DNA from: Arctopsyche grandis
Lineage: Eukaryota > Arthropoda > Insecta > Trichoptera > Hydropsychidae
DNA: 64,000 bases
Direction of reading: 5' to 3'
NCBI RefSeq assembly: GCF_051622035.1
Contig: NC_135359.1
Location: 33,137,501-33,201,500, forward strand
This document shows positions 1,345 through 63,152 of the stretch, piece after piece. The notes beneath the pieces were generated by a model. It did not search any database. It was not told the DNA's origin and saw nothing but the letters and a program-made list of their open reading frames with translations. The number at the start of each line of letters is the position of its first letter. The first letter of the stretch is position 1. A program made the position numbers and the translations under genes.

Positions 1345-1890
1345 GCCAGCAGTTTGGCTTAGTGATAGCGTATATATTTAGCATCACTGAGGTCAAAGGT
1401 TCGAGTCCTCGCCACTGCTGGTTAGATTTGGGGGTTTTGTGACTCCAAATCGATCGTTTCTCTATCAGAGTTTGCCAATTTTATCTGATCATTGCTGAAA
1501 AGGTTCCTGAAAATTGGTATTAGATCTAATCCTGTTGTCACAAAAATCTGCCTGTGTATAATTTGTAATAATTATACACAGTAATCTGAAATCTATAGAT
1601 ATCTCTATCGACATCTCTATAATTTCGTATTTATTGTATGTATAAAAATTGTATACAAAAAAAAATCTAAAAATAATCCATAGAAGTCACTATGATTATT
1701 ATTTCTGATCAATTGTTATATTCTATATATTCTGATTGTATATGTATGTATTACTGTATTTCTGATTTCTGATTGTTTATGTATTTCATTAACGTACACC
1801 CGTCGCATTGGAGCAAATCTGTTATGGCGAGTGTGTATTGATTTGTGACAATAAAAAAAAATAAAAAAAAAAATAATAAAATGACGAATT
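1345..1890 (+). mobile_element. tRNA-derived SINE, family I (full length)
   Basis: The head carries pol III promoter-like boxes: an A box (TTGGCTTAGTG) and a B box (GGTTCGAGTCC). The head is bracketed by CCAGCAGT and ACTGCTGG. The body is shared with a minus-strand copy at 62,648-63,152. Near the 3' end (1,795-1,838) lies a stem-loop with arms TACACCCGTCGC and GGCGAGTGTGTA, followed by a short spacer and an A-rich tail. The loop resembles the 3' hairpins of other retroposons in this window (see findings). Confidence 0.8.
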
Positions 1891-2324
1891 CACTTTTAGA
1901 TACCGTCCATATTAAAGATGATTATTCATAATGTTTCTTAGATCTGTCTGTTACGCGATAGATTTCATAACGACAAGGATTTCTTTAATAGATGATATTA
2001 GAAACTTTTTATTTCAGTAGACGGTGAACGAAATGTTAATGAAATAAATTATTTTAGTCACCGCTTTGTCCATGTTATATACTCGTATATATAATTGGTA
2101 TTAGTTTGTCACCGGACTGATACCAAAATATTCAATACCCTGTAATTCATTTCATTGCATTCTTTCAATACAAACATTTTCATTAAACATCTGAATTATG
2201 TTTTTATTCTAAATCGGCTATTCAGTACATAAGTAAGTATATGAAATGAAGACATACATATGTATGTACTAAAATCTGTTGGTAACGCGATAGATTTAAG
2301 AGGGCTGGACAGCAGCGCCTTGTC

Positions 2325-3240
2325 CATACAAACGTACTATACTTCTCCCTTCCTCAATTATGGCACTAGAGAAAATATTTTTTAATATGCTATGGATATC
2401 CACCATTGGGGTGCATCTATCGTTTTATTTTTTTTGATTTATTATTTTTTATAGGAGCTAGGAGCCGCCAAACATCTATAAAATCGCCTCTTTTTTACAC
2501 CCACGAAAAGAGTCTAGCGTGGTTATTTAACGGTCGATTTTTAAAAAAATACGCCGATAGATGCACAGAAAATATCTTTCTCATACCGATGATGAAATTT
2601 TTTTAAAAATTGGTCCAGTTTTGGAGGAGAAAATAGTAGAATACAAAACCTCGATTTTGTCAATTTAAAACACGTTTTATCTAGTCGAAGCGCAACTGTC
2701 GCATTCACTCAATATATATATTGATATATATTGTCGCATTCACTCAATATATACATACACTCAATATATATATCGAAGAAAGGAACAAAATTAAGGTTTC
2801 GGGTGTACAGCCCTCTTAATAACGACAAGGATTTCTTTAATATGTACAAATGATCGGTATTAGTTTGTCTGTTTATGACTTTCCATCGCAAAGTCAAAAT
2901 TTAAATGAAACGTTATTCCGAATCAAAGCCAGCGATCTCATATACATATTTCACAACAATAGCCAAGTCTTACGATGGCATAATCATCGCTCTTGCACAA
3001 ACATGCAGAATTAATCTCTGGCAACGTCCCATTTGACTATTCCAGAAGAAAGAATTCATCGCTCCGAAGTTGAGAAACGAAAACGAGCTTCTTTGTACAT
3101 ATCATTACTATTGTAACAAGTGAACATAAATAAAGGATCCTCTTACTAACACAATCAGTGTTTTCATAGACCGAGATACTTTGATACACACCTTCCCGCT
3201 GTACATTTACAGAATTAAGATTAAACTGTGATTTGACATT
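2325..3240 (+). mobile_element. Composite LINE 3' end plus LTR-like block, inverted copy of 54,107-55,230
   Basis: It begins with the last codons of a CR1-like reverse transcriptase (ending NYGTREN-IF) and its 3' UTR (to about 2,680). Next come TCACTCAATATATA repeats and a block ending near TTTCATAGACCGAGATAC that resembles an LTR end. The same series with the same junctions lies on the other strand at 54,107-55,230. No intact protein is encoded. Confidence 0.7.
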
Positions 3241-3416
3241 GCAACCTTCTCGAATGCGAGCGTCAGATGAGCTGACTCTGATGAGATGCCCGCGAACTCC
3301 TCGCGAAAACCACAACCAACGACCACGGCCACGAGGGCATTTGGCTCGAACATATGTCTAGTCGATAATAATAAAAATTTCGTAAATAAAAAGTATTTGC
3401 GAATATTTTTGTTTGT

Positions 3417-3600
3417 GTGACCAGTTATCATACGACCAATTTGTAATTTTTGGGTGTGACCAGTTTTCTCGTGACCGATTTTAGGTGACCAGTTTTCTCG
3501 TGACCAGTTTTAGCGTGACGGGTGATCACGAGTGACCGATCTAGAGCGACCGGTTGTCCTGTAACCGGTTCACATTTGACTAGTAGTCCGTTTACCTTCC
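3417..3600 (+). repeat. GTGACC-rich repeat (half of a foldback element)
   Basis: About ten copies of a GTGACC(A/G) word recur every 13-20 bp. The right part (CGACCGGTTGTCCTG and neighbours) matches the right arm of the foldback at 17,590-17,810. The open frames across it, with repeated VT/KTGH words, are products of the repeat and not genes. Confidence 0.7.
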
Positions 3601-3654
3601 AAGAGCTATTCGACTTCTCAATAAAATCGTTGGTGCCGTGCCTGAATGCGATAT

Positions 3655-3689
3655 TTTCCACCTAAGTGATACGCTCACTTAGGTGGAAA
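3655..3689. repeat. Perfect 15-bp hairpin
   Basis: TTTCCACCTAAGTGA (3,655-3,669), a 5-bp spacer, then its exact reverse complement (3,675-3,689). No T-run follows and the role is unknown. Confidence 0.8.
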
Positions 3690-4189
3690 GTATCGGATAT
3701 TATTTTATCATATTCGTCATATTTATATTTATTAAAATGTCTTTGATATGTTTTCGTGTTTGAAAGAATATTCAATATTGGTGTTGGTGTGTGGCTTTTA
3801 ACAATAATCTCTTTTTCATTATATGGTAGAGACGCAAATGTCATTTTTAGTACATTTTTAATTAAACAATTGCAATTGTTATTAACAACGGCGATAAATC
3901 TACTTACATTGTTACTTTGGCTATCTATATTGAGGGTCATAATAAATAGTAATTTAGGACGTAATAAATTACAATTAAATAATAAAAGTGAATAACTTAA
4001 GTTAATAAGTACTGATCAAGTTTATAATTAATTACTGATAAATTTTTCATTTTTTTACTAACCAAATAATTTGTTAGCTAGCATTTCTCTGGTATAACTA
4101 GTACCAAATTTAGACCAAAGAAGTCACTAAAAAAAATAGCAGGGCAAAGGCAAGTCGTCTGGTTGGTGTCAGAGTAAAATACAGGGACG

Positions 4190-6081
4190 ATGGAGTGCAG
4201 GCTTTGTCTTGGATCAGCTCCGGCCGAGTCTTCCGTCTCCATCTTCCAGAGACCAGGTCCTCATCCAGAGCGTCTGGAGCAACGCATTCGGACCGGCTGT
4301 CAGATTTATGTAGGTTACTGGTTACAGGTTACAATACTGTTGTGGACCCAATTGGTTCTCCCAACTCTTCTCACCGCTCAATCCTATTGTTTTTTTCATT
4401 TGATCTGCAGGTTAAAAGAGGCGATGGGTTGCCAGACACGGTGTGTTTTTCGTGTAAGACCAATCTCGAATCGTTGATCAGCTTTCGAAAGGCTTGCTTT
4501 CGAAGCCACGAAACATCTCAACTGAGGTTAGCTGATTGCTTGAACATCAAGACTGAAGAAGTTTTCTTGGAAGATCTAATATGGGACGATGAGCCTTCAC
4601 AATCGACAATTCAACGAAAGGATAGTGAAATTTGTCTAAAACCATTTACTCAAAAATCTAACCATAAGAAACAAAAAAAATTGCATACTGGGATAAATCT
4701 ACACAAGTGTGAAATTTGTCTAAAATCATTTACTAGAAAATCTACCCTCGATACACATAAAAAATCGCATGCTGGGATAAAACCACACAAATGTGACATT
4801 TGTTTAAAATCATTTGTTCGGAAAGGAGAACTTGTGTCACATTTGAGAACTCACACGGGGGAAAAGCCTTACAGGTGTGAAATCTGTCTAAAATCATTTA
4901 CTCAAAAATCTAGCCTCGAGACACATAAAAAATTGCATGCTGGGATAAAACCACACCAATGTGACATTTGTTTAAAATCATTTAATTATAAAAATAAACT
5001 TTTAATACATATAAGAGCTCACACGGGGGAAAAGCCTTACAGGTGTGAAATTTGTCTAAAATCATTTACTCAAAAATCTAGCCTCGATTCACATAAAAAA
5101 TGGCATACTGGGATAAAACCACACAAATGTGACATTTGTTTTAAATCATTTATTCGTAAAGATGAACTTGTGTCACATTTGAGAACTCACACGGGGGAAA
5201 AGCCTTACAGGTGTAAAATCTGTCTAAAATCATTTACTCACAAATGTAGCCTCGAGACACATGAAAAATTGCATGCTGGGATAAAACCACACAAATGTAA
5301 AATTTGTTTAAAATTATTTTCTCAAAAATCTAACCTCGTGTCACATGAAAAATTGCATGCTGGGATAAAACCACACGAATGTAAAATTTGTTTAAAATTA
5401 TTTTCTCATAAATCTTACCTCGTGTCACATGAAAAATCGCATGCTGGGATAAAACCACACAAATGTGACATTTGTTTAAAATCATTTAGTTCTAAAAATA
5501 AGCTCGTGAGACATTTGATATCTCACACGGGGGAAAAGCCATACCATTGTGAAATCTGTCTAAAATCATTTACTCAAAAATCTAACCTCGAGACACATAA
5601 AAAATTGCATGCTGGGATAAAACCACACAAATGTGACATTTGTTTAAAATCATATGTTCGTAAAGATGAACTTGTGTCACATTTGAGAACTCACACGGGG
5701 GAAAAGCCTTACAGGTGCGAAATATGTCTAAAATCATTTACTCAAAAATCTAACCTCGAGACACATAAAAAAATGCATGCTGGGATAAAACCACACCAAT
5801 GTGACATTTGTTTAAAATCATTTATTTATAAAAATAACCTTGTGATACATTTGAGATCTCACACGGGGGAAAAGCCTTACAGGTGCAAAATCTGTCTAAA
5901 ATCATTTACTCAAAAATCTAGCCTCGAGACACATGAAAAATTGCATGCTGGGATAAAACCACACAAATGTAAAATTTGTTTAAAATCATTTTCTCAAAAA
6001 TGTAACCTCAAAAAACATAAAAAATTGCATTTGAAAACTCACACAAAGGGAAAGAACCACACAAATGTAAAATTTGTTTAA
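4190..6081 (+). CDS. ZAD-C2H2 zinc-finger protein with a long finger array
   Basis: Two exons join in phase 0: 4,190-4,309 (donor GTAGGT) and 4,411-6,081 (acceptor CTGCAG), giving 596 residues. The start is the ATG opening MECRLC, the usual ZAD N-terminus. The ZAD has two Cys pairs, CRLC (residues 3-6) and CFSC in exon 2. ZADs are known as protein-interaction, often dimerising, domains of insect nuclear zinc-finger factors. After an acidic linker ([13 protein letters not shown]) come one degenerate and 16 well-formed C2H2 fingers. Linkers alternate strictly between TGEKP and AGIKP through most of the array. A sequence-specific nuclear DNA-binding protein is inferred; the target is unknown. 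The frame ends soon after a disturbed finger-17 linker (HLKTHTKGK), and more fingers lie downstream out of frame, so this allele is C-terminally shortened. A longer open frame from 4,195 only reads through the intron. Confidence 0.85.
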
Positions 6082-6830
<749 letters not shown>

Positions 6831-11839: not shown

Positions 11840-12045
11840 TATTTTTATTATTTTTATTTTACATATATACCAGGAAGGCCTTACAGGTAAATCCCAATGC
11901 GCCTTCCTGGCCAATTACAAATACAAATGCAGCATTTTTATTATAAGTCGTTGAATTGCGAGACACTGAAAAAACTCGCAAATTAACGAGACATCTATGA
12001 ATTGTACATAATATACATACATAGATTGTACATATGTACATACAT
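11840..12045 (-). mobile_element. SINE family II 3' part with terminal hairpin
   Basis: The minus strand carries the same 3' body as the SINE at 37,272-37,705 (AATTGCGAGACACTG / TCTCGTAATTCAGCGAC region). It ends with the hairpin at 11,870-11,910 (arms CCAGGAAGGC and GCCTTCCTGG) and an A-rich tail. Confidence 0.75.
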
Positions 12046-12699: not shown

Positions 12700-12840
12700 T
12701 GTGGCGACTAAACGACATGGTCGAGTTTCGGTCACCATCCTGCGAGTTGGGACCAACTCGGCCAAGTTGTCTGTCGCAACTTTACTTTCTTCCCGCCCAT
12801 CAGATTAAACAGTTGTTTCACTCCATACACCCCATATCAT
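12700..12840 (+). mobile_element. Diverged TRIM-type LTR
   Basis: Starts TGTGGCGACTAAACGACATG and shares the TGCGAGTTGGGACCAACTCG core. The 3' half is diverged. Confidence 0.7.
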
Positions 12841-12990
12841 TATCTATATTTCAACCTTGCAGGATTTTCATTTCCTGGTTCCTGAAAATTGTATGGTATT
12901 ACGGAATTGCGAGCTGTTTCTGACCATTAAGGCTAGAAGAAATATACTCATAAACTCTCCCCTTTCTAGGGCTGATTGACTTCTCAATAC

Positions 12991-13042
12991 GTTGGCTCAC
13001 TATTTAGATCTTTAATTAGAAAAATCTAAATAGTAAGCCAAC
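12991..13042. repeat. 19-bp-arm hairpin
   Basis: GTTGGCTCACTATTTAGAT and its complement, with one mismatch and a 14-bp loop. Isolated in AT-rich DNA. Confidence 0.7.
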
Positions 13043-13789
13043 ATAGCATTAACATTAGCTAATTCTAATGAGGTGGTTGAGCAGATCTTGAGAAATTCAT
13101 AACATTTATTATAGACATATTTTTTATTGTTTTTCTTACTATATTTCATTTGGTGTATGTATTTTATATGCACTTTTGTTTTTTTTTCAATTATTTATGT
13201 CATTTTTTTATTATGGATTTATATTCTTTTAAATGTTTTTTTTTCCCTTTTATTTTTATTATTATTTTTATGTATTTAACCACAACGACTCATTGAGGAA
13301 AGCCGTTATGTCATTGTTGCATTATTTTTTCTATAAATAAACAAATGTTTGTTCGATATGCAAATCCAGTTTTCATTTTAGGGCTACCAAATTTGGTATA
13401 CTATCTCGTGGTACCCTAATTTTGACTTATGATTTTGAAACTCCTGAAGGGTTTATTTTTTCTTATTTCATCCACCCGATTTGTGTATAAAATGCACTAA
13501 AATGCTACGAAGATGTAGATATTCCTATTAATTTGGTTATACAATAATAATACTAACATGTACATACATATACATACATACGTGCGTATAACTTTTTGCA
13601 ATAAAGTTATAGTCCATTTTTGATAAAAATATTTTGGAGTTAAGACTCGAATATTATTTAATTATTTCGAACTCTTGAAAAAAATATTGAAAAGTCCACT
13701 TGATTCTTCCAGTGTGATATTTTAAATGCCTCGACAAGAAATTTTAGAATAAATAATACTAAACCAATATAATAAAAATTAGGCAGCTT
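13043..13789. other. AT-rich intergenic DNA and likely 3' UTR of the minus-strand ZNF gene
   Basis: No coding signal. The part next to 13,790 is the presumed 3' UTR of the ZAD-ZNF gene. Confidence 0.5.
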
Positions 13790-19146: not shown

Positions 19147-21582
19147 ATGGCGGCAGAGAGCCGACTATCAAATCGATATAAGAAAAAATGGTCAGAATCA
19201 GAAACAGTACGGTTTGTGGAGCAGTATGAAATGCAGGAAGTACTTTGGAACGTGCGATTGTCGCAATATAAAAATAAAGAAGCGCGAGCAGCTGCTGTCA
19301 ATCAAATTATTCAAAATTCAGATATTCCCGGTATGAGCGCAGAGGGCGTTTTAAAAAAAATCAACAACATTCGAAGCACCTACCAGCAGGAAAAATCGAA
19401 AATGCAAAAATCAATCGATAGTGGCGTACCTGCCGAAAATATATACATACCATCACTGCCATGGTTTCACATTGCTGATCGGTTTCTACCCTCTGTTATT
19501 AAAACGAGGAAATCTTTCATAAATCTGGTAAGCATCTAGCTTTGTTAGTTTGTTATCGGTATAAACCTGTATTATACTAATGTGTAAACATTAAACCACG
19601 TCTGTTTGATATTTATTATGAATTCAATATTACGATGTTCATAAAGATAACTCTATATTCTACCGTTTTATCATAGCAGAGCATCATCAGTTTCGGTACT
19701 TTTGTCTTTGTTGTTCCGCAATCTCTGTGTAATGGTTGCTTCTCTATTTTATAATATTTGCAATGTAGGGAGATCTTGGTTCTAATCCATCCACCAGGGC
19801 TATCAACGACATCCAAGATTCGTAAGGAGGCGTATAGTGACCATAGGATGTTTTAATCAACCAATTACGAAGCACACATGACGCTTTCACTATTCAGGAC
19901 GCAAATTAATGGATTCAAGATGTTTTTAGCGTTATATTACTGAATATTGTGGAGTGGTTTCCTCTGAACCCAAATTGGTGTTCTGGGTTTCACCCTTGAC
20001 AGGAGACTGACAGGAACTCACCCAGCGGCTACACAAAATGAACTGGTTGATAGGAAGAAAATCCAGTCTAACATTAGAGAATAAAATTTTAGTATATAAG
20101 TCAATCTTAAAGCCAGTCTCTGGACATATGGTATCCAACTATGGGGAACGAGTAGTAATTCTAACGTGGAAATCTTACACAATTCCAAAATAAAGCTCTT
20201 AGAATAATAACAAATGCCCCATTGTTTGCGAGAAATTTTGAAATTCATCAACATGTATGTGTACCATCAATTAAAACGAAAATAGAAAATTATACAAAGA
20301 ACTATGAACAAGCGTAGACTCGAAACCCACTCAAACGAGCTGGCAAAAGCTCTTATAAAGTCTAGTGCAAAAGACACTAGACTAAAGCGCCGCAGAGTTC
20401 TCGAATAATGCATAAAAAGCTGGCAATTAATGAATTGCCAAATCTTCTGAAATAAATTGTGATAAAATTTGATTACGACCGACGGGTCGATTGCAAATAT
20501 CTTAAAAAAAATATATATTACTGAATATTGAAATGTCATTTACTCTGCCTTAGCTTTGTATCAACGTAGATTTATTAATTTATTCATATACATATGTATA
20601 TGCCAGGAAAGGCTAACAGGTAAACCCCAATGCGCTTTCCTGGCCAATTCCATTACAAACGATGAAATAATACCTACTGTCAACGAGTCCCAGGACAGAA
20701 CTGAAAAAACTTTAATAATAAATTATAAAAGTAACTTCCAATGTGTTCCAAGTCCAGTGGCGGCTCGTCTATATGGGCTGTGGGGCTGCAGCCTCCCAGT
20801 ATAGTAAATATGCATGATATTTTTGGCGTTTATATGGTCTGCGGGCTGCAGCCCTACTAGTTTAGTACACGTAAATGCTATTTTTGTTTGCATTTGATCA
20901 CCAGTACGATCGACGAGCTACCCCATTGGGAATTCTCACGAGCCGCCACTGGTTCCAACGCTAATTAATTCCTTTTCCAATTGAAGCCCATTCCCGAGTT
21001 GTTTTTGGGGTCTAAAACAATACAAAAATGTGTTATATTCTCTTTTTACAGTCGGATATCAAAGAAGAAAGAGCGAATGAAGACACTTCAAGTAACGAAG
21101 CAATCCCTTCTTCCGATTTACCACCAACTCTTTCTCCTTATGTACCACCGCCTTCTCCAGATATACCTCCATACGATGACACCTCGATGCCATCGTCACA
21201 ATATACTATGAAGAGTAAAAGATTTAAAACATCTGCAACACCCCAACACATTGAAGAAGCTATGAACACACTAAAATCGTTGAAAGAAAAAGTAGACACA
21301 CACAGAGAAATAGAAGATGAGTTCACCTACTTTGGAAAAAATGTAGCCTGTCAACTCAGGCAGCTACCAATAATGGATGCGCTCGATTGTCAGTCACAAA
21401 TATTGCTCTTGTTACAACAAAAAAGAAAAATGAACAGCATACGCGAAAACAATCGGGTTTCAGAGAACCTCGTGCAATATGCTGTTTCTCCTGGACCTTC
21501 CGGGACACACTTGTCGTCGTATGCTCAAGAGCAAATTCACTACCAAGAAATTCCGATTATCGTTCAACAGAGCGCCGAGTAG
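19147..21582 (+). CDS. MADF-domain protein with C-terminal BESS-like segment
   Basis: Two exons join in phase 0: 19,147-19,527 (donor GTAAGC) and 21,052-21,582 (acceptor TTTACAG), giving 303 residues. The start ATG has a good context (TCAAAATGGCG). Residues about 12-110 fit a MADF (Myb/SANT-like) domain: KWSESETVRFVEQYEMQEVL with a Trp soon after, then KINNIRSTYQQEKSKM and PSLPWFHIADRFL. A Pro/Ser-rich, acidic linker follows. A segment near residues 215-260 (FTYFGKNVACQLRQLP ... QSQILLLLQQKRK) resembles BESS interaction motifs. MADF-BESS proteins are known as transcription factors, and MADF proteins are also encoded beside PIF/Harbinger transposases; no transposase is seen here. The intron holds a LINE, a SINE tail and a hAT-type MITE. 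Host factor or domesticated transposon protein is undecided. Confidence 0.8.
19950..20513 (+). mobile_element. 5'-truncated jockey LINE with 17-bp target duplication
   Basis: TATATTACTGAATATTG flanks it exactly (19,933-19,949 and 20,514-20,530). The insert includes a decayed reverse transcriptase end (MNWLIGRKSSLTLENKILVY), frameshifts and a short A-rich tail. It lies in the MADF gene intron, in sense orientation. Confidence 0.85.
20603..20643 (-). repeat. SINE family II terminal hairpin
   Basis: Minus-strand hairpin with arms CCAGGAAAGC and CTTTCCTGG. One stem pair differs from the other family II copies but pairing is kept. Confidence 0.75.
20754..20952. mobile_element. Short MITE with CCAGTGGCGGCTCGT inverted ends
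   Basis: Perfect 15-bp terminal inverted repeats. The interior has two GGGCTGCAGCC-type direct words. The end sequence resembles hAT-group MITEs. The flanks share GTTCCAA imperfectly. Confidence 0.75.
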
Positions 21583-23520: not shown

Positions 23521-23560
23521 GCTGAACCAACAAAATTAAATTTATATTTAGTATATATTC

Positions 23561-23795
23561 CAGCAGTATGGCTCGGTGGTTGTGTTTATGTTTAGCACCG
23601 AGAGGTTACCGGGTTCGATCCCGTGCTAATCTTTAATGCTGCTGGTCAGACTTGGATATTTGTGACTCCAAGGCGATCGTTTCCTATCAGAATTTGCTAA
23701 TTTATCTGATTTCATTGTTGAAACGGTTCCTCCATCAAATTGGCAAAAACCATCCTGCCCGTTATGTCATAAATATCTGAATTCGATTTATGTTA
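23561..23795 (+). mobile_element. SINE family II, tRNA-like head and body
   Basis: A box TGGCTCGGTGG and B box GGTTCGATCCC lie between CAGCAGTATGG and AATGCTGCTGG. The body is shared with 33,041 and 37,272. The 3' tail is missing. Confidence 0.8.
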
Positions 23796-23814
23796 TAGAA
23801 CAGGTGGTCGAGTG

Positions 23815-24279: not shown

Positions 24280-24350
24280 CTAGGAAGGTGCATTGGGGTT
24301 TATCTCTTAGGCCTTCCTGGTATATATCTATGTAAAAATAAAATAAAACA
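24280..24350 (+). repeat. SINE family II 3' hairpin and tail
   Basis: A hairpin (24,280-24,320) with arms CTAGGAAGG and CCTTCCTGG, loop GCATTGGGG...CTCTTAG, then TATATATCTATG and an (AAAATA)n-like tail. Confidence 0.75.
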
Positions 24351-33300: not shown

Positions 33301-36300
33301 GTACCACTTGGTGGTACGCCGTTGATGGTTGGTGGTACGCGAAAAAAAATCAGTAATGGCGGACATGCAGGAATGAATGATTTACATACAATCATAAAAA
33401 TAGAAATATTTTTTATGTCTAATATACATATAATTTCGAAAGAGGATGAAATCCTCTTTAACGCAGTGCTTCCCCAAACCTTTTAGAAGCAAACAATTTG
33501 ATTTGAAACCCCTTTGATAATGAACATTTTCGGACAGCTACCAAGGAAAAGGAGAACTTGATTGAACTTTCAAATTATAGCATTTAAAAACTGAATTCGA
33601 AATAAATAAGTTTATGAATGTTTGGCTAGGTATTAGTGAAGAATATGAACAGCTTTATGACATAGCGCTTAAATTTCTGTCGCCGTTTACTAGCACTGAA
33701 CTGGTTGAGAGAGCTTTCTCTTCATATATTTTAATAAGACAAATATAGAAATTGATTGAATCCAGCTCCAGACTTAAGGGTAAATCTCACATCATTTGAA
33801 CCAAATTTAAAAAAACTAAGTACAAAGATCTCATTAAATTTATTTTGTAAGGAGATTTAATGAAAAGAAAACATATTATATGTATTTTGTAATTTTGTGT
33901 TTTTGTTAAAACCATCAATAATATTTTTACTATCAATAATAGAAGTATTACAAGATAGTAGATAAATATATTAAACTTTGAGCATATTATAATTGTGACT
34001 CCGCAAATAACTTTTTTTCCACAAAATTTCTTACCAAAACAGATCTACATGTTGCGTGTATCCTGTCTTCACATTCCTTACCATGCAAATACTATATATA
34101 TAAATTACACTTGCAAAAACAAATTTCATGAAATACAATAATTTTTATATGGTGGTACAATTTGTTCAATTGTTCACCGATAACAGACGGTCTGTGAAAG
34201 AGATAGCTGCATACGTAATGGCATAGTAAACGAGATCTTGGTGAACAGACGGGGTGAGAAAGAGATGGCCGTATACGTAATGCCTGGAGCGCATCCTCGG
34301 TTTACGGAAAATCTGTGAACGAGTTGTCAGGTAACCGTATATATGAGAATGTTAGTAAATTACGAAATTCATACGAAGAAATAAAATCAGGAGCGAACAA
34401 ACTGGCCAGGAAGTGGGGAGAAATTTTTGCATCAGGGCCAAAATTTCTAGCTACGCCACTGATTGAGGTCTACCTGTTAGGCCTTCCCGGTATATGTCTA
34501 TGTAAAATAAAAAATAAAATTTCTTACTCCATTTTTATTAAAACTCATGATTGCATGAAGGTGTGCCAGGAAAATAACGTCTATAATTTTAGCACTTTGT
34601 ATTGGAAAAATTGCCGAGGGGCGAATAGTTATCACAGGTTCCCACAGTCGTAGACGTCTGTCTGTGCCTCCAGTGACCAAAAGATTCAGAAATTCCGAAT
34701 AATGAAAGCATGAAACACCCTGAAACAAAACAATATCCATCACATTTACCATAGAAGTGGATAAAAAATCATTGAAAACATAACTTAAATAATTCACCCT
34801 TTGAATTTTGAACGTATATGAATCCATGATGCCTTTGTTGTGACGAATAACAATAGAGGCATCACAATCACTCGAACACGATATGATACAATTGTTTCTG
34901 GCAACGTGTACGATTTTTTTAACAGCCCGAGAGTGAACCCTCCTCTTGAATTTGATTTTACAATACGCTTCGTTGACCGAACCCTGCAGCTCCTGTAAAA
35001 CGATCATATCTTCAAAGCTTAACCCAAAAACTTGTCATACTTGAACGCAATAACTCACAATCCAAAAGTAGCTCGTCAATTTGTCTGGATTTTTCTTATA
35101 AAACATTCCAACTTTGGGCTGTTTAAAGACAATTGTAGTTAAGCCGCCGAGATCGTCTCCCATGACAAGGTGTGACTTTGAGAGTTCTGCATATGGTGGA
35201 TTGTACGATAGGCACTGAAATTTTATCACAATGCATCAATACTTTAATTTATAGTTAATAAATCTTACATAAAAAATATGCGAAAATAACCAACCATTGG
35301 TATATTAGTGATTCCCGTTATTAAAAACGTCGGAACGTGACACAAAGTTGATGCATCATAAATCATCATACTCTTATCAGAAGCTGTTATTACTAGAGCT
35401 TTAATGTCCTGTTTATAATACACGTCTATATATTATTGTATATAATACATTCAAAGATGAATAAATTGAAAATTAACCGACGGAAAGGTAAACGGAAGCT
35501 GTTATCCAAATATCTCTTATTCTTTTGGTGACTCCAGTTCTTATAAAAAATACATCATACTCTTGAAGCAAGTTAAGCTTTCCATCGTAAGTACCCACTT
35601 TTCCATGTTTTGAAATTATAATGTAGCAAAAGGTCGATTCATCTTCCACAGCCAGAATTGCACTAATTGATTCTTTCTATAATTGTATTTAAAATTATTT
35701 TATCTTCAATTTATACCAGGAAGGCCTAACAGGTAGCCCCAATGCGTCTTCCTGGCCAGAAACATTGTACATTTGATACAAATATCATTAGTATTGTTAC
35801 GTACGCCGCGGATTGAGCGAATTGCACTTAGACCAACGGATATCTGTTATCGGATTAACTAAATGCATGCACTTACTTCCAAAGATTATATCTGGACTCT
35901 AAGTGCATTTAGGCTAAACAATGACCGTTATTAGTTAGTTCTCAGAATCGGTACGGGGAGACCCAATGTCGTGGAAACACATATCCGAATACGTGACTAT
36001 ACAACAGGTAAACAGATTAGGCGTCCTGAGAGATCTACCCTTTATAAGGCGGTACGTAGGCGATATCATGTAATTCTGGACTTAGCAGTGACACTGCGTG
36101 TATCTCCTTAATCATCAATAAATGCTGTGAAACGACTGTTGGCCTTTTACTTGGATCCTCCACCCACCCCTACGCAACAGTATTGTTGCGTAGGGGTGGG
36201 TGGAGGATCCAAGTAAAAGGCCAAAGTCGTTTCACAGCATTTATTGGTGATTAAAAGGAGATACACACACTGGCAGTGCTCCGTCCAGAATGTCTTGATA

Positions 36301-38461
36301 TCGCCTAAGTACCGTCTTATAACGGATAGGTCGCTCAGGGCATCTTCGACGTCCGGTTACTTCCCTATTGTTTAGGCATGTACCCGGATATGTATTCCCA
36401 CGACACCCAGTCCCACGCTATCGGTCACTTCTGAGAAGAGACCAATTCGGTGGCCATTGTTTAGCCTACTTGCACTTAGTCTGGAGATAATCCTTGAAAC
36501 CAATATTATAACGGTCACACAGTCTCTGGGATGCTACTCGGCCTAATCCGATTGCACTTACTCGGCGGTGTACGTAACAGTATTATGCAAAGTACATAAA
36601 TACATATCAATTAACATCCACAAAGACATTTATGGTCAAATTTGTAAATTTGCAGCATTTTATACAATTCAGCGAAATTCGAGATTGCTGAAAACTCGAG
36701 ATTTTGCGAGAAAATGGGTAAGATTGCCAATTTGTTGGAACTGTTTCGATGAAAATCAGATAAATTGGCAAACTCTAGTAGGAAACGATCGACCTGGCGT
36801 CACATATCCAAGGTCTGGCCAACAGAAACCAGTGGGATTTTAGCCCGTGACCACTCTGTTCAGAGCATTATATGTTAACCACTACTCTATTCTGTTGGTT
36901 GAGTGAATATTGAGTGCCACAATTTTAAGTAATGAAATATGCATACATAACCAGTACTGACCTATGGAAATTAATTTTGGATCAAGACAAAATGTCAGAA
37001 TGGAAATGAAGGAAAAAGTTACCAAGTAGGAAAACATGGAAGGAAACATTAACATTTTATATATCTTGAGAAATTCAATTAAATTGCTGAGGCATGTTCT
37101 CAAAAGGAGAGACCCAAAAGATTTTGGAGATGAGCTCAATATGTAAAAGACTAGAAGTGGAAGCGCATTCTATTATATAAGCAGTAGACGACTTGTTCTT
37201 CTGAGGTGTCCTGATGCAAACTCTTGAGACTTTGACACAATTATAGATAAGAGGAAAAGGAGATTAAATTAGCCAGCAGCATGGCTCGGTGGTTAGGTTT
37301 TTGCCTAGCACCGAAAGGCGCCGGGTTCGATCCCATGAGTTGACCTCGATTGAAAATAATTTATTCCGAGTATATCTATAATGCTGCTGGTCAGACTTGT
37401 AAATTTTTGTGACTCCAGGTTGATTGTTTCCTACCAGAGTTTGCTAATTTTACTGATTTCATTGTTGAAGCAGTTCCTGCATTAAATTGGCTAAAAGCAT
37501 CCTACCTACTATGTATGTTACCACTATTTGAGTATGATTAATGTACAAAAAAAATTATGCACAGGTTTAAAATTCTTAGATGTCTCGTAATTCAGCGACT
37601 TGTGTAATAAAAATGCTGCATTTTTTGTAATTGGTCAGGAAGGCACATTGGGGTTTACCTGTTAGGCCATCCTAGTATATTCGTACACATATAATAAAAT
37701 AAATCTGAATTAACATAAAAGCCAAACGTGAAAAGTTCTTCCACAAACATTAGTTGAAATGATATATTCAAAACTACAGGCAACTAAAATGATAGCAGGT
37801 AAGAAGACTTTGTACAGACAAACTTTTCAAAATTCATACAATTAAAACATAAGTAATAGACAGAGACGAGTCATACCTTGCAATGTTCAAGATCTTTGAT
37901 AAATATATCAGATTTTTTAATAGTAAAATACTGTCCGGTAGTTGTTTTGTTGTAATCAATCACATACTCTAACAATTGATCCCATTCAACGTATCCAGTA
38001 TCTTCAAAGTCTAGTATTTTGAATAGTTTCAAAGCGTCCAAATTGTAATGCAAATTACCTGTACATACAAAGGAACAGTTACAATACGACAAACAAAAAA
38101 CATGATAGTACGTGTTTGTTAAGTAGAATTACCGAATATTGTGTTAACGGCGTTCACAAAATAGCCCTCATTGATGTTGAACTTTGCGCCGTTGATTTGA
38201 TGATCTGATTTGAATTTTGTAAAATGTAAACGAAGACGAAGCATCGCAGCAGAGTCCAATTTGGATAGCAGTTTACTACATATACCCACAGCATCGTTAT
38301 CATTGTCATTGCTGTATATTTGTTATGTATAAAGTGAATTTGAACGAATATTACATACCTGAATACTTCTAATATACAAAATATGTAAATATTAAAAAAT
38401 ACCTCAAATAGGACGGACTTGGGGATATATCAGAGTCGTTGAAAATATTATTAGAAAACAT
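30315..38461 (-). CDS. EF-hand/WD40 protein of the WDR49/WDR64/WDY family
   Basis: Fourteen exons join in phase (minus strand): 38,403-38,461; 38,133-38,311; 37,877-38,058; 35,494-35,676; 35,295-35,408; 35,059-35,214; 34,798-34,992; 34,528-34,719; 32,754-32,935; 32,469-32,686; 32,267-32,398; 30,693-30,790; 30,459-30,619; 30,315-30,396. Total 710 residues. Residues near 85-120 form an atypical EF-hand (KLFKILDFEDTGYVEWDQLL, Gln at the last loop position). WD40 blades follow: IWITAS/DIKALVITASDKSMMIYD, GVSCFHYSEFLNLLVTGGTD with RRLRLW, and, across an intron, MSFNKNG/VLKLWNIFNQVC. The relatives are EF-hand/WD40 proteins, several of them linked to cilia and flagella; an axonemal or testis role is inference. 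The C-terminus is acidic. The exon 4 donor (GTTTAC) is weak but the only phase-matching choice. Introns hold LTR, SINE, hAT and piggyBac-like insertions. Confidence 0.85.
30916..32248. mobile_element. piggyBac-like non-autonomous element, 1.3 kb, in a WD40-gene intron
   Basis: TTAA at 30,912-30,915 and 32,249-32,252. Ends CCCTTTGAGTGCTGACGTC and CAGCACTCAAAGGG are inverted. The inner CGCCGATCGGCG palindrome lies near the right end. No complete transposase. A truncated copy lies at 49,165-49,714 in the opposite orientation. Confidence 0.8.
33041..33275 (+). mobile_element. SINE family II, interrupted by a hAT element
   Basis: Same tRNA-like head and body as at 23,561 (B box GGTTCGATCCC). It stops exactly where a hAT end begins. 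The 3' hairpin tail at about 34,465 may be its displaced end. Confidence 0.75.
33276..33760 (+). pseudogene. hAT transposon remnant (5' end plus transposase C-terminus)
   Basis: The left end CAGCGTTTCCCAACCTGTGG with repeated GGTACGC words is typical of hAT elements related to ZFBED/Charlie groups. At about 33,650-33,745 the frame reads EEYEQLYDIALKFLSPF then TSTELVERAFSS, the hAT dimerisation domain. Stops and the lack of the catalytic core show decay. Confidence 0.75.
34465..34520 (+). repeat. SINE family II 3' tail abutting a splice donor
   Basis: TCTACCTGTTAGGCCTTCC then CGGTATATGTCTATG and an (AAAATA)-like tail that ends a few bases from the donor of WD40-gene exon 8 (exon edge 34,528). 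Confidence 0.7.
35716..35755 (-). repeat. SINE family II terminal hairpin, minus strand
   Basis: Hairpin with CCAGGAAG arms. It lies in intron 3 of the WD40 gene, with the SINE tail towards 35,700. Confidence 0.7.
35796..36179 (+). mobile_element. Solo LTR, plus orientation, of a head-to-head pair
   Basis: Begins TGTTACGTACGCC, ends CCCTACGCAACA. GTAT stands before it (35,792-35,795) and after it (36,180-36,183). A CCTTTATAAGGCGG TATA region and an AATAAATGC signal are visible. Confidence 0.85.
36184..36579 (-). mobile_element. Solo LTR, minus orientation, of the head-to-head pair
   Basis: Inverted copy of the previous LTR (starts TGTTGCGTAGGGGTGGGTGG on +, ends GTACGTAACA), flanked by GTAT at 36,180-36,183 and 36,580-36,583. 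The two LTRs form a ~780-bp palindrome with a 4-bp centre. Confidence 0.85.
36710..36842 (-). mobile_element. SINE body fragment, minus strand
   Basis: Contains AATTGGCAAACTCTAGTAGG and AACGATCGACCTGG, the complement of the shared SINE body. Confidence 0.6.
37272..37705 (+). mobile_element. SINE family II, complete with head, body and terminal hairpin
   Basis: tRNA-like head (A box TGGCTCGGTGG, B box GGTTCGATCCC), an extra ~40 bp insert (TTGAAAATAATTTATTCCG), body, and the terminal hairpin at 37,634-37,675. The loop reads CATTGGGGTTTACCTGTTAG. An A/T-rich tail follows. It lies in intron 3 of the WD40 gene. Confidence 0.8.
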
Positions 38462-51656: not shown

Positions 51657-52440
51657 CGGTCAGGCGGAGGCGGAGGCGGCGGAGGCGGCGGGGGCGGAGG
51701 CGCTCCCCCCCCTGTCGGGAGCGGCGCCGCGCATCCTCACCCGTTCTCGAGGCGCATCGCGGGGGGCGCGCCTCACCACCGGCCAGGGGGCGGGGCCTCA
51801 CTGCACCGCCCTGCCGAGGGCGCTCCGCCCCGGGGGGCGACCTCTGCACCTCTGCACCTCTGCACCTCACCTCACCTCACCTCACCTCAGACTACGGACG
51901 ATCGATGCCCGCCACTCCACTCCACTCCACTCCACCTGAAGACGACGACGAAGACTCCTCCTCGGCAGTCGTCGGTGGCAGTGACGAGGTGACCTCGTTC
52001 CGGGTGTCCAGTGTCGTCTAGTCACCAAGTGTCTAGGTGTGTAATGTAATGTGTAATGTGTAATGTGTAATGTGTAGTGTTTGGTGTGGTGTGGTGTGGT
52101 GTGTAATGTTCGGGAGTGTCCGATGTCGGCTCGCCGCTGAACCGTACAGACTGGTTCGTTGCGGAAACCCGCCACTGAGGGGCGCCACTCCCCACCACCA
52201 ACATTGCACCGACGTTCGCTTGCCACGTACTACTACTGCTACTACTACTACTACTACTACCCTGTACTACATATGTACTACGCCTAGCAACTGCACCTGC
52301 ATCTGCCTGGATGCGGATGTAGCTGCCCAGCCTTTTCCTGGAAGCCGATTGATTTTGCGTGCATCCATCCGGGCTCGTCGCGTAGCGGGAGAGGTGACCG
52401 CTTTAAAGGTCGAAGAGTTCTCCACCCTATAACGGTGTGT
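51657..52440 (-). promoter_or_regulatory. GC-rich 5' region of FBXL6 with simple repeats
   Basis: G+C content rises sharply around the FBXL6 start, with tandem CACCT/CTGCACCT (51,840-51,888), TGTAATG/TGGTG units (52,040-52,115) and (CTA)n (about 52,220-52,262). It probably contains the promoter and 5' UTR. Long open frames on both strands here are low-complexity (Gly, Pro, Arg, Ser). Confidence 0.5.
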
Positions 52441-52445
52441 CCCAT

Positions 52446-52560
52446 ATTTATTTATTTATCTATTTATTTATTTATTTATTCAAATAGCAAAACTGCTAAT
52501 ACATACAATACAAAATAACAACAAAAAATTATAAATCGTCTTCCACAAAGGTATCCATTA
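52446..52560 (-). repeat. LINE 3' end with (AAAT)n tail, minus strand
   Basis: The minus strand reads the end of a coding frame (MDTFVEDD-like), then a short 3' UTR with TAGCAGTTTTGCTA and an (AATA)n tail. Nearly the same block recurs at 53,437-53,541. Confidence 0.7.
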
Positions 52561-52587
52561 AGATTTCGCGAAAAACTTCCGTATACG

Positions 52588-53430
52588 CCTGTTTTCTAGA
52601 CTTATCCAAGGCCTTCGATCGAGTGGATCATGATCTGCTTTGGTCCAAACTGTTAAAAAGGGGTGCTCCAAGTCAAATTGTGAGGTTTTTAGCATCCTGG
52701 CACCGGAATCAGTTCAGCCATGTACGCTGGGGGAATTCATACTCTGATCCCGCTTCTTTGAAGTGCGGAGTTAGACAGGGTAGGTCAATGTCTCCTGGCT
52801 TATTCAACCTTTACATGGATGAACTTTCACATCGCCTTCGACAGACTGGAGTTGGTTGCCACATAGGAGGAATATTCAGTAACCACATCAGCTATGCGGA
52901 TGACATGGTGATCTTGGCGCCTTCTCCGTCAGCTCTGAATCGCCTCCTGGAAGTTTGCTCGAGTTATGCTGCAGAACATAATATGCGGTATAATACGAGT
53001 AAATCCATGGTATTGATTTTCCGATACGGTCGAGGTCCTCATTTCGTCCCCAACATTATTTTAGATGGGCGTAATCTTGAAACTGTTAGGGAAGTCAAGT
53101 ATCTGGGACACTTGCTGACGGAGGATCTATCTGATGACCGTGACATCGAAAGACAAAGAAGAGCCATTTGTGTAAGGGCAAATATGCTGGCTAGACGATT
53201 TTTCCACTCCAATGTAGAGGTGAAGAGACAATTATTTATGTCCTTTTGTACTAGCCTCTATACTGGTGAATTATGGACCAGATACAAGCGGGAGACGATG
53301 AGGAAGATAAAAGTACAATACAACAACTGTTACCGTGCTCTTTTCGGGCTACCTAAGAACTGTAGCGCGTCGCAAATGTTTGTAGAAGGGCATGTGCCTC
53401 ACTTTGAAGCCATTCTCAGGATGAGAGCGG
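52588..53430 (+). pseudogene. LINE reverse transcriptase fragment with YADD active site
   Basis: The frame holds FLDLSKAFDRVDHDLLW, GVRQGRSMSPGLFNLYMDEL, ISYADDMVILAPS (catalytic Asp pair) and VKYLGHLLTEDLSDD, that is the palm and thumb of a LINE reverse transcriptase. The frame is open without internal stops for about 280 residues. Endonuclease and 5' half are absent and the 3' end runs into (TTTA)n. A related scrap lies at 62,553-62,635. Confidence 0.85.
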
Positions 53431-53436
53431 CCTCTT

Positions 53437-53541
53437 TATTTATTTATCTATTTATTTATTTATCTATTTATTTATTTATTTATTCAAAAAGCAAAACTGC
53501 TAATACATACAATACAAAATAACAAAATAACAACAAAAAAT
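53437..53541 (-). repeat. Second copy of the LINE 3' end block
   Basis: Matches 52,446-52,535 with a longer tetranucleotide tail. The pair brackets the reverse transcriptase fragment as direct repeats. Confidence 0.8.
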
Positions 53542-53544
53542 TAT

Positions 53545-53945
53545 TTATTTATTTATTTATTTAATAGTTTTGGACCATTGTGGCATTACAGGAAGAAACC
53601 TAATGCGTCACAATGGCCTACATTTGAAAAAGATATAAAAACATGATATAAAAAACAAGTAAACTGTAAATAAAGGAAAAAAGCAAAAGCAGAAAACATG
53701 GTAATATAAAATAATAAAAAAAAAGTAGCATAAGAAAAATAATACATCATTCAAAGAGAAAAAAAAAATAACAAAAGTGTAAAAATTAAAAATAAAATCC
53801 ATAAATCCCATTCTTTGTTTACACTGAACAAAATTAAAATAGTATATAAAAATATACAAAGGAGAAAGAAAAAGTAAAATAAAATAAAACAAAATATGAA
53901 TAAAAAATAAAATCACAGCGAGGCCCAAATGGAAGAGAGTAGATT
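53545..53945 (-). mobile_element. 380-bp retroposon with terminal hairpin B, minus strand
   Basis: The minus strand begins at TAATCTACTCTCTTCCATTT. It is T-rich, with GAATGGGATTTATGGATTTT, and ends with a hairpin (53,575-53,616; arms CCATTGTG and CACAATGG) and an (AAAT)n tail. A nearly identical copy lies at 56,761-57,137. The Phe/Tyr-rich open frame is an artefact of T-richness. Confidence 0.75.
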
Positions 53946-54106: not shown

Positions 54107-55230
54107 ACCTTAACAGTTTAATCTTAATTCTGTAAATGTACCGCGGGAAGGTGTGTATCAAAGTATCTCGGTCTATGAAAACACTGATTGTGTTAGTAAG
54201 AGGATCCTTTATTTATGTTCACTTGTTCAAATAGTAATTATATGTACAAAGAAGCTCGTTTTCGTTTCTCAACTTCGGAGCGATGAATTCTTTCTTCTGG
54301 AATAGTCAAATGGGACGTTGCCAGAGATTAATTCTGCATGTTTGTGCAAGAGCGATGATTATGCCATCGTAAGACTTGGCTATTGGTTTGAAATATGTAT
54401 ATGAGATCGCTGGCTTTGATTCGGAATAACGTTTCATTTAAATTTTGACTTTGCGATGGAAAGTCATAAACAGACAAACTAATACCGATCATTTGTACAT
54501 ATTAAAGAAATCCTTGTTGTTATTAATAGGGCTGTACACCCGAAACCTTAATTTTGTTACCATTCCTTTCTTCGATATATATATTGAGTGTATGTATATA
54601 TTGAGTGAATGCGACAATATATATCAATATATATATATATATAGGATCCGGATGTGAAGGATTCCAAGTGAAACGCAGATTAAGTCAGAGCTATGTATTT
54701 ATTAACACATGTCTTCGGGCTCGTTCTCCAACAAGTGACCATAACAACACACATCCGGTCTTTCCCATGCATACCACACACACTTTATCCCAGCTTGACC
54801 AACCATACCTACGGCTCGTTTAAAAATCATTCCTACATATATATTGAGTGACGCTTCGACCAAATAAAACGTGTTTTAAATTGACAAAATCGAGGTTTCG
54901 TATTCTACTATTTTCTCTTCCAAAACTGGACCAATTTTTAAAAAATTTCATCGTCGGTATGAGAAAGCTATTTTCTGTGCATCTATGGGCGTATTTTTTT
55001 TAAAATCGACCGTTAAATAACCACGCTAGACTCTTTTCGTGGGTGTAAAAAAGAGGCGATTTTATAGATGTTTGGCGGCTCCTAGCTCCTATAAAAATAA
55101 ATAAATCAAAAAAATAAAACGATAGATGCACCCCAATGGTGGATATCCATAGCATATTAAAAAATAATTTCTCTAGTGCCATAATTGAGGTAGGTAGAAG
55201 TATAGTACGTTTGTATGGCCCTCTTAACAC
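54107..55230 (-). mobile_element. Inverted copy of the 2,325-3,240 composite
   Basis: The minus strand repeats the LINE 3' end, TATA-rich tract and LTR-like block of 2,325-3,240 in the same order. An extra ~200 bp (54,640-54,838) occurs within the AT tract. Confidence 0.75.
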
Positions 55231-56760: not shown

Positions 56761-57137
56761 ATTTATTTATTTAATAGTTTTGGACCATTGTGGCATTACA
56801 GGAAGAACCTAATGCGCCACAATGGCCTACAATTGAAAAATATATAAAAAGAAGTAAACTGTAAATAAAGGAAAAAAGCAAAAGCAGAAAACATGGTAAA
56901 ATAAAATAATAAAAAAAAGGAACAAAAGGAAAATAATATCATTCAGAGAGGAAAAAAAAATAACAAAAGTGTAAAAATCAAAAATAAAATCCATAAATCC
57001 CATTCTTTGTTTACACTGAAAAAAATTAAAATAGTATATAAAAATGTACAAAGGAGAAAGAAAAAGTAAAATAAAATAAAACAAAATATGAATAAAAAAT
57101 AAAATCACAGCGAGGCCCAAATGGAAGAGAGTAGATT
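56761..57137 (-). mobile_element. 380-bp retroposon with terminal hairpin B, second copy
   Basis: Same 5' boundary and hairpin (56,785-56,825) as the copy at 53,545-53,945. Confidence 0.75.
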
Positions 57138-57167: not shown

Positions 57168-57527
57168 TGTTACGTATACTAAAAAAGAGCCGCCAAGTAA
57201 TTGAAAACGGATTAGGCCAGGTAGCATCCCAGAGACCGTGCGATCGTAATAATTGGTTTCAAGGATTATATCTAGACTGTAAGTGCATTTAGGCTAAACA
57301 ATGACCGTTATTAGTCATATCCGAATACATATCCGAATACGTGACTATACAATAGGTAAACAGATTAGACGTCCTGAGAGATCTACCCCTTATAAGGCGG
57401 TAAGTAGGCGATGTCATGTCATTCTGGACTGAGCACTGCCAGTGCGTGTATCTCCTTAATCATCAATAAATGCTGTGAGACGACTGTTGGCCTTTTACTT
57501 GGATCCTCCACCCACCCCTACGCAACA
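57168..57527 (+). mobile_element. Solo LTR of the family at 35,796
   Basis: Starts TGTTACGTATAC, ends CCCTACGCAACA, and shares CCTTATAAGGCGG and AATAAATGCTGTGA. The flanks (TGAT / ATAT) do not match, so recombination or decay is likely. Confidence 0.8.
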
Positions 57528-57599
57528 ATATTTTAGCTATCAAGCTAATTTAAAAATACATCTTAATTATTATACTTAACTTTAAAATTTATAATTAAC

Positions 57600-60243: not shown

Positions 60244-60321
60244 GGTATTTTTATTTTCAACGATTTCGATCCGTACACCTCGAAAACTTACACTAAACTG
60301 AACTAAAATTGTAGAAAACAA

Positions 60322-61343
60322 TCATATTTAAAAGACCCGAGCGTTAAAAACCACACACCTAAAGGGACAATATTTGTATTGCCCAAAAATCGTAAAATCA
60401 CAAGTGTTCCGGTTTCCGAAACCGTGACGGTATATTGTGAAGCCAAATCTCTAACCGACCAATATGTCAATAATTTTGATAAATCATTGTCTAATCAAGT
60501 GTTTTTCGTAATAACTATATGGTTTTCAAAGCTATACACCCTATATTTCTTCTATTCCTAGAACGAACTACAAGAAATTTATTTTAATAGATTTTGTATG
60601 ATTTAGAAAAGGAGTACACCGTAAAAAAATACATTTATACATTTCTACGTTCCAAAGTATGATTTAAAGGCGGTAGCGATAAGTCATGTTTTTGACCGTT
60701 CGCTTGCATATTTTTGTTGATCGATGAATCGATGCGAGAGAAAGAGACAGCTATATTTTCGTAAACTATTGTTTTCGTCGCTTTTGGCGGGTGGCCATTG
60801 AGTCATGCAGTTGCATGTTGGCCTTACCTATGTGCGTTTACGTGTTGATGCTTGTTGTTATTTAATACTATTGAGAATCCGTCTCCGTCCTTGTTGCTCT
60901 TACTTCCTAGAATCTGGGAATCACCCAGGTTGCACCTAGCAATAACAAATGTTTGGCGCATTGAGGCCGTCGACACCAACAATATTACTTACAATATTTT
61001 CCATATCCAGTTCCGGTATTGCAACCTGTGGTTGCTATTTGACTGTGCAGATGTAGGTAACAAAAGGACAACCATTTTGTACGCCACGACAAAAATATTT
61101 TGAATCAATATATCATTTTCAATATATCATTTTCAATATATCAATATATATCAATATAAATGAAATTTAGGAGGGGCGATTTCTCCCATCGCTCCTCCCC
61201 CCCCACCTCTAGATCCGTTCTTGATTGGAGACAAAGTTAATAGAAGATCTGTTTATGTTGTAGCTCGTTTTTTTAGACATATAATACAACGAAAAATATC
61301 TGCATGATGGAAGTGTAAACTTGAGATGGGAAAGTGAGTATAA
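60322..61343. other. No recognised gene
   Basis: AT-rich DNA with short open frames only and TCAATATAT simple repeats near 61,115-61,155. Confidence 0.45.
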
Positions 61344-62118
61344 GGGTGAAATCACACAGAGAGGCACGCAGCAAATGGTTTTTTTTAGATACTTTTAAAC
61401 ATGCGAAAAAAATGCAGCACGCCTAGCACATATTCATAACACACAGTCTCAAAAATCACCCCTTGAGTGTTTTCGGTGATATTTTATCCTTTTATTTATC
61501 CTAGCTTGACAGTGATAGATAACGGTGGATACCATATTTGAAGAAATATAGGAGAACTTGTCGAAATAATAAGATCGTACGAAATAATAATGACATTAAA
61601 GTTTCAAGCTTTTATTGTTTAATAATTCAGTTTTAAACTTAATTAGTAAATAATTAAAAAAATAGATAAACATGTGTCCCGTTTCTAAACAACAATTGAT
61701 TACTATTTCCTGGTAGGTTTCAGAATTAAATACTCACTTGAAACGACATGTGGCATTCATAAAAAAACGGACAAAGATGTTTTCTGCATAAAGGGTTATA
61801 TTTAGTGCACTAATAAATGACCGTAAACAATTGATACATTAGGGAGTCTAAAATAGAATAATTAGAAACGGAAAAGAAGTATCCCGTTTTTAAATGACAA
61901 CTGATGTTTTCTTATAGGATAGTACAAGCTGTCCGTTCTTGAACGTGCAGAATGCATTTGTTTGTTAGCTCGGACTCTGCCTGGGACTTCAGGGGATGAT
62001 TTTTGGGACTGTGTGCCATGAATATGTGTTGGGCGTGCTGAATTTTTTTCGCATGTTTTAAAGTATCTAAAACAACCATGTGCCGCGTCAAGACGTGTGA
62101 CCCTGTGTGAATTCGTCC
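61344..62118. mobile_element. Long-TIR (GGGTG...TCACACAG) element with TAA duplication
   Basis: Ends GGGTGAAATCACACAG and CTGTGTGAATTCGTCC, flanked by TAA. Interior shared with 9,605-11,014 (AGCTTTTATTGTTTAATAAT, complement). No transposase. Confidence 0.75.
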
Positions 62119-62552
62119 TAATATAACATTCGTTCCATATCGAATGAAATTCCTTCATCCCCAACTTCTTCCCTACGCCACACTCTTCTCCCTTCTCCAA
62201 GGAACGTAAGCGCAAGCGAAAGTGAAAGTCCGAATTATAGTGGGGCGGTGGCTATTAAGAGCGATACCCCCGCCATTTTTTTGTCAAATTTACAGAATTT
62301 AGAATTTTTTAATAAAATTTTCGACTGTGGCACATTTTCAGCTTCGGTTGATTTATAATAGAGTTAAATTGTTTTTTTTTCTTCATAACTACCGCTTCTT
62401 ACCAGAGATCGGTGGACAAGTAACTTTTGCCAAAAAAAAAAAAATGGTTCACTATTGTCAATTACTATCGTCCTAAAAAGAAAGAGCAAAAAAAAAAGTT
62501 GATAATAGTATAATTGAAAAAAAAAGTGAACTGTTATAGAACTGTTATATTG

Positions 62553-62635
62553 CAGCGCGTCACAAATGTTTAAGGAGGGGCACGTGCCTCACTCTGAAGC
62601 CATTCTCAGGCTGAGAGCGCCCTCTCTACGTCTTT
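62553..62635 (+). pseudogene. Scrap of the LINE reverse transcriptase at 52,588
   Basis: MFKEGHVPHSEAILRLRAPS matches the end of the earlier frame (MFVEGHVPHFEAILRMRAAS). Confidence 0.75.
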
Positions 62636-62647
62636 GTATATTTTTAT

Positions 62648-63152
62648 CGTTTAATTTTATTTATTTTATTGTTACAAATCAATATACACTCGCCATTATA
62701 GATTTGCTCCAATGCGACGGGTGTACGTTAACGAAATACAGAATACATAAACAATCAGAAATCAGAAATACAGTAATACATACATATACAATCAGAATAT
62801 ATAGCATATAACAATTAATCAGAAATAATAATCAAAGACACATCTATGGATTATTTTTTTTGTATACAATTTTTATACATATAATAAATACGAAATTACA
62901 GATATTTCTATAGAGATATCTATAGATTTCAGATTACTGTGTATAATTATTGCAAATTATACACAGCCAGATTTTGTGACAACAGGATTAGATCTAATAC
63001 CGATTTTCAGGAACCGTTTCAGCAATGATCAGATAAAATTGGCAAACTCTGATAGAGAAACGATCGATTTGGAGTCACAAAACCCCCAAATCTAACCTTT
63101 GACCTCAATGGTGCTAAATATATACGCTACCACTAAGCCAAACTGCTGGCTT
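62648..63152 (-). mobile_element. SINE family I, minus strand
   Basis: Complement of 1,345-1,860, including the tRNA-like head (near 63,100) and the terminal hairpin (62,685-62,725). Confidence 0.8.

Follow-up and report, generated by a model that had tools for sequence, protein, structure and literature searches.

In eel, the long interspersed nuclear element (LINE) UnaL2 and the short interspersed nuclear element (SINE) UnaSINE1 end in a common 3'-terminal stem-loop tail (PMC5135761). Here we describe a hairpin that likewise closes both LINEs and SINEs in Arctopsyche grandis, starting from a 64-kb stretch of contig NC_135359.1 (positions 33137501-33201500, hereafter the window) in a genome of 475,669,232 bases and 189 contigs. 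The hairpin is very probably the 3'-terminal recognition element of stringent LINEs of the endonuclease/reverse transcriptase (RT) type, borrowed by SINEs. A stringent-type 3' tail common to LINE and SINE is a known kind of element; what is new, as far as we searched, is this motif, the coexistence of several compensated stems within a single genome, and the abundance of a SINE type (A) for which no LINE with a matching stem was seen. Among the open-licence papers listed, no title or abstract opening dealt with the motif. Short strings of its letters occur in 411 papers, of which the 20 listed have unrelated titles and none contains the 15-letter string.

In zebrafish, swapping the stems while keeping the loops leaves both ZfL2-1 (at about half the rate) and ZfL2-2 able to retrotranspose (PMC4176376); the loop is specific and the stems exchangeable, as we propose here. 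The two zebrafish elements differ from each other in the loop, whereas in A. grandis an internal loop and inner helix stay constant while the stems differ. These L2-clade systems are also of another LINE type than the LINEs found here, whose provisional clade label is Jockey-like. An L1 lineage of the monocots maize and sorghum and its SINEs, ZmSINE2 and ZmSINE3, also keep their loop letters and vary the stem with compensation (PMC3747384), but that system belongs to the L1 clade and has a UCU loop and CGAG flank where ours has an internal loop and inner helix. With these two precedents (PMC4176376; PMC3747384), the first-pass annotation of the window overstated the novelty of loop-only recognition.

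Among insect elements, the silkworm LINE SART1 carries a stem-loop in its 3' untranslated region that is needed there, and such 3' elements are described as commonly having an internal loop or bulge close to the tip (PMC5135761). SART1 is, however, of the R1 clade and tied to telomeric repeats. The Helicoverpa SINEs HaSE1 and HaSE2 have a common head and central domain and a different 3' region, as do the A and C SINEs here, and the tails of HaSE1 and HaSE3 match a LINE, as the C/D SINE tails do here (PMC3272025). Their partner is an RTE element, though, the 3' region of HaSE2 is mariner-like, and the main text uses neither the word hairpin nor stem (PMC3272025); the available parts of PMC8010984 and PMC1925062 report no such hairpin. 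The A. grandis genome amounts to a natural compensatory-mutation experiment, in which several LINE and SINE families carry the same core under different stems. It makes the proposed split between general stem and specific loop recognition testable beyond the L2 clade and raises the question of the number of SINE families that a single LINE can support.

Structure and recurrence of the hairpin

The window holds nine hairpins of three families, A, B and C (Table 1), all at the coordinates and on the strands first reported for them and each directly before an A/T-rich tail. When folded, each has an outer helix some 10 bp long, then an internal loop, then a shorter inner helix (3-4 bp) that ends in a small tip. 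The internal loop reads GCATT on its 5' side (GCNTT across types) and GTWA plus one base on its 3' side, and the inner helix occurs as GGG/CCT, AGG/CCT or GGA/TCT. The supposed conserved loop is nearly constant in its letters, but structurally it is this internal loop with its short inner helix. Among the first 100 genome matches listed, all on one contig (C1 of the genome) and comprising 50 A-like, 25 B-like and 25 C/D-like loops, the inner helix is GGG/CCT in 45, GGA/TCT in 25 and AGG/CCT in 23, and its third pair covaries, being paired in 98 against 80 expected. GCTTT occurs in LINE hairpins (L021 2210 -, L021 4048 -, L024 2352 +) and GCATT in C/D and other SINE hairpins, a contrast that may partly reflect the choice of most copies by the GCATT pattern.

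Table 1. Hairpins and associated elements, in window coordinates unless a fetched locus is named
Feature	Position	Strand	Remarks
C SINE head, core and body, before C1	1346..1794	+	sequence comparison
C1, family C hairpin	1795..1838	+	C/D-type stem; folding z -1.2
A1, family A hairpin	11870..11910	-	10-bp stem CCAGGAAGGC/GCCTTCCTGG; -22.0 kcal/mol, z -4.4
L009-like LINE fragment	12821..13012	+	36% amino acid identity, E 7e-7
Weak decayed hairpin after L009-like fragment	13278..13320	+	CCACAACGAC/GTCATTGTTG, 8/10 pairs
A2, family A hairpin	20603..20643	-	one two-sided pair change and one C-C mismatch; no upstream SINE head seen
A3, family A hairpin	24280..24320	+	SINE head upstream at 23560-23774
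Degenerate A tail	34462..34519	+	3' half of loop, 3' arm and A-rich tail remain
A4, family A hairpin	35716..35755	-	no upstream SINE head seen
tRNA-like head and core of A SINE	37272..37514	+	A and B boxes by eye; common to C SINE
A5, family A hairpin	37634..37675	+	belongs to long SINE copy starting at ~37272
LINE ends with TAGCAGTTTTGCTA hairpin	52400-52560, 53380-53620	-	
LINE end with TAGCAGTTTTGCTA hairpin	L021 1104	+	
B1, family B hairpin	53575..53616	-	3' end of truncated LINE copy extending to ~54000
B2, family B hairpin	56785..56825	-	-21.4 kcal/mol, z -5.5
C2, family C hairpin	62685..62725	-	pattern and stem scan
C SINE head, core and body, before C2	62726..63150	-	sequence comparison

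The pattern GCATTRGN{4,10}CTGTWA matches the window exactly six times against 0.03 expected, a count reached by none of 100 shuffles, and the remaining three of the nine hairpins (24280, 37634 and 62685) are one letter off. Across the whole genome (476 Mb) the loop pattern has 15,036 matches and the reversed pattern 1,944. Chance origin of the loop match is ruled out by the window shuffles, this genome count and a scan for pattern plus stem. That scan, derived from A and B and allowing at most two mismatches with at least 8 of 10 stem pairs, recovers C1, while shuffles yield 0.06 matches each (12 of 200 with one). Recovering C2, whose stem reaches 9 pairs, takes three mismatches, at which shuffles yield 0.74 matches when 8 stem pairs are required and 0.115 when 9 are. 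A model built from A only finds B2 (E 2e-6) and B1 (E 3e-4) but not C1 (E 1.7), for which a model of A and B gives E 0.37. Family C is weak on window evidence alone and is settled by its genome copies.

Folding energy by itself is convincing for only some copies, with z-scores in the window running from C1, which 21 of 200 shuffles equal, to B2. Stem and loop recur together across 28 fetched loci (L004-L031), with a few poor folds: a proper stem is lacking in L020, while L026 and L031 401 reach -8.8 and -9.2 kcal/mol. As these copies were picked by the GCATT pattern, loop conservation in the genome-copy alignments is circular; stem conservation is not. Two scans of viral contigs gave 3 and 0 matches, the three showing no stem by eye, and we put these down to chance. 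No Rfam family matched the window at its gathering score.

LINE partners and SINE tails

The first-pass annotation had suggested looking for a LINE whose 3' end carries the same hairpin, and we found one in the B LINE (L018), with others bearing the C/D stem (L021, L024) or the L009 stem. These three LINEs have three different paired outer stems and proteins about 38-51% identical in short stretches. At L018, the B hairpin lies about 378 nt beyond an RT frame (RVT_1, 8e-13), and in two copies RVT_1 reaches about 1e-27. The B LINE, the sole one tested for this, encodes both RT and endonuclease, the endonuclease part being weaker (Exo_endo_phos, E 6.7e-5, 23.2 bits, just below the Pfam cut-off of 24.5); copy L044 is preceded by a frame of 370 amino acids and by the beginning of an endonuclease-like one (L062). 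A genome search gave 14,398 candidates, of which 121 places were scored; nearly all of these matched the query at 96% identity, some with open frames of 989 amino acids, and judged by sequence the B LINE is a young family. Of 30 copies fetched, 28 showed its hairpin (all but L036 and L037), lying 387-412 nt past the query end in 27 and 363 nt at the query's own locus, and followed by an A/T-rich tail mostly of the AAATAAAT type. In the window, the copy ending in B1 is 86% identical to L018 across about 400 nt, and B2 ends a more truncated copy (to ~57147) of the same LINE. B1 continues into a LINE, and we therefore rejected the reading of B as a SINE whose 5' end is fixed.

The second LINE (L021, L024), 39-51% identical to L018 in pieces, ends about 200 nt past the matched part of its open reading frame (ORF) in GCACACTCGT..ACGAGTGTGC-type stems, which are the C/D stem, with a GCTTTGG loop. 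The third, at L009 (38%), has the stem CCACAGTGAC/GTCACTTTGG with 9 of 10 pairs and a GCGTTGG loop, and the hairpin at L031 666 has another stem again, its LINE being only putative. The L021 hairpin at 6501 was considered as an A-type LINE and rejected, the frames upstream being short and not RT-like by eye. By eye, the motif is absent from the 3' ends of two other LINE families of the genome (the types at window 7674 and 56030). Within the window the only candidate for a partner LINE, and a weak one, is the hairpin at 13278-13320 (model search 8.6 bits, E 8.2; folding z only -0.5).

The A and C SINEs have a common head and core and different tails. What had been described as three unrelated 3' ends is one SINE stock with different tails, A and C, and a LINE end, B. 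The SINE head contains a GGTTCGATCC-type B box by eye; ARAGORN calls no tRNA in the window. We labelled 55 hairpins by rules that depend on the available upstream sequence, leaving 16 of the 55 as neither SINE nor LINE. The 30 A-type hairpins comprised 23 SINE, no LINE and 7 neither; the 12 B-type, 4 LINE, 1 SINE and 7 neither; and the 13 C/D-type, 2 LINE (L021 and L024), 9 SINE and 2 neither. A single SINE stock bears three tail types, with the B tail on one copy only. LINE and SINE have a common 3' end in this genome for the C/D and B stems but not, among these 30 hairpins, for A, and the stem-loop stands near the 3' terminus before an A/T-rich tail. Among the window's A copies, about 96 nt preceding the A1 stem match genome A SINEs with no SINE head within reach, and other repeated sequence (~23806-24249) separates the head from hairpin A3. 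The degenerate tail is 75-86% identical to four A tails (model search 11.3 bits, E 1.3; A-only model E 0.067).

Covariation and the reading of the hairpin

In the nine window copies, which stand for three tail types, 94.0% of cells are paired and 10 of 13 pairs show two-sided change, neither value being matched in 500 shuffles. An alignment of 34 distinct hairpins including window copies has 92.2% of cells paired and a covariation score of 0.611 against 0.217 when shuffled (0 of 500), while two of five measures, which count pairs and types, fall within the shuffles (60 and 63 of 500). This set is the 35 distinct hairpins, identical rows removed, minus the chance match L019 4691, and is without window B1 and C2, L018 6501 and L020, which the pattern missed.

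Pair by pair, taking the best of four offsets per hairpin, which favours pairing, A and B have 6 of 10 pairs in common, and each of the 4 that differ is changed on both sides. The claim that the stems differ almost entirely yet stay paired holds for A and B against C, but not for A against B. Differences from the A stem to the D SINE stem number 8 of 10, again all two-sided, and B differs from the D LINE by seven two-sided changes and one one-sided, from L009 by two two-sided changes and one unpaired position, and from F by one two-sided change; between L009 and F there is none, and no fully paired position differs. One-sided changes number 0 or 1 of 10 between tail types and up to 3 inside the C/D type. 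The pair change noted in the copy at 20,603 is real (G-C has become A-U), but a C-C mismatch has also arisen two pairs off.

On the recognition reading, the specific part bound by the LINE protein would be the internal loop with the inner helix, the outer stem would be recognized mainly as a helix, and target-primed reverse transcription would then start in the A-rich tail downstream. One SINE stock with a tRNA-like head and core would have taken such tails repeatedly (A and C/D, with a B tail on one copy), its members being copied in trans. A ZfL2-like division between a nearly constant core and a free but paired stem would explain this genome.

Several observations weigh against this reading. 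Changes to the UnaL2 stem are harmful (PMC4176376). The 3' side of the internal loop has 4 nt in the C/D LINE, 7 nt in L009 and 5 nt in A, B, C and F, and GCATT is variable at its third base; given this variation the conserved core is not rigid. The covariation from which the first-pass annotation drew a selected RNA structure is supported between families (0 of 500 shuffles) but not within family A, where 206 of 500 shuffles score as high, and the covariation evidence rests on few independent tail types. A search for target-site duplications in six copies, two of which are LINE copies, gave none that was clear. None of the 30 A-type hairpins examined was labelled as belonging to a LINE; A-like loops nevertheless make up half of the first 100 genome matches listed. 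Either a LINE with the A stem exists unseen, or the A SINEs depend on one whose stem is different. We consider it possible, though rather doubtful, that A SINEs have no LINE of their own stem in this genome and that the B or C/D LINE copies them in trans, reading only the internal loop and inner helix and accepting any outer stem of about 10 bp. If so, stems would be free to drift through compensated steps, and a foreign stem would leave a SINE competent.

The hairpin adjoins AATAAA-like tails, as might be expected if it served RNA stability, 3'-end formation or a host protein rather than the LINE's own RT. We find this improbable, as the hairpin is common to the transcripts of SINEs and of LINEs, two classes that generally have different polymerases. 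A common LINE/SINE 3' end is, moreover, described as the usual mark of stringent recognition (PMC4176376; PMC5135761). Complementary changes by themselves cannot separate RNA from DNA, but it is highly unlikely that the structure works as DNA, as a cruciform or insertion landmark: the first inner pair is G-U in 28 of 34 copies and A-U in 6, which fits RNA better, and the element is present at one end only. The idea that no structure is selected, paired stems being inherited accidents in tails copied from few master elements, would fit the chance level of paired change within family A, the small number of tail types and the slight differences between related stems (B, L009 and F), but it merits next to no credence and is already disfavoured by the A, B, C/D and L009 stems, which differ by 2-8 two-sided changes in 10 pairs against 0-1 one-sided and 0-2 unpaired.

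Other features of the window

Another LINE family has at its end a short TAGCAGTTTTGCTA hairpin, followed by an AATAAATA tail, and lacks the GCATT motif. Two copies of one LINE ORF (RVT_1 at 52500-53522) are broken from the antisense side at almost matching points, window 53361-53488 and 62551-62678, by a AATAAATA-tailed element (53433) and by SINE C2. The breakpoints lie about 20-30 nt apart by eye, reflecting either target preference or coincidence.

Long self-complementary repeats resembling miniature inverted-repeat transposable elements (35877-36499 and 57190-57532) adjoin hairpins A4 and B2. Two inverted segments about 51-53 kb apart, 2324-3229 and 54113-55218, are 94-98% alike and probably represent two copies of one transposon. 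Arrays of an 84-nt repeat lie on both strands (4114-6081 + and 13790-14482 -) and by eye code for C2H2 zinc fingers; the window also codes for a MADF domain.

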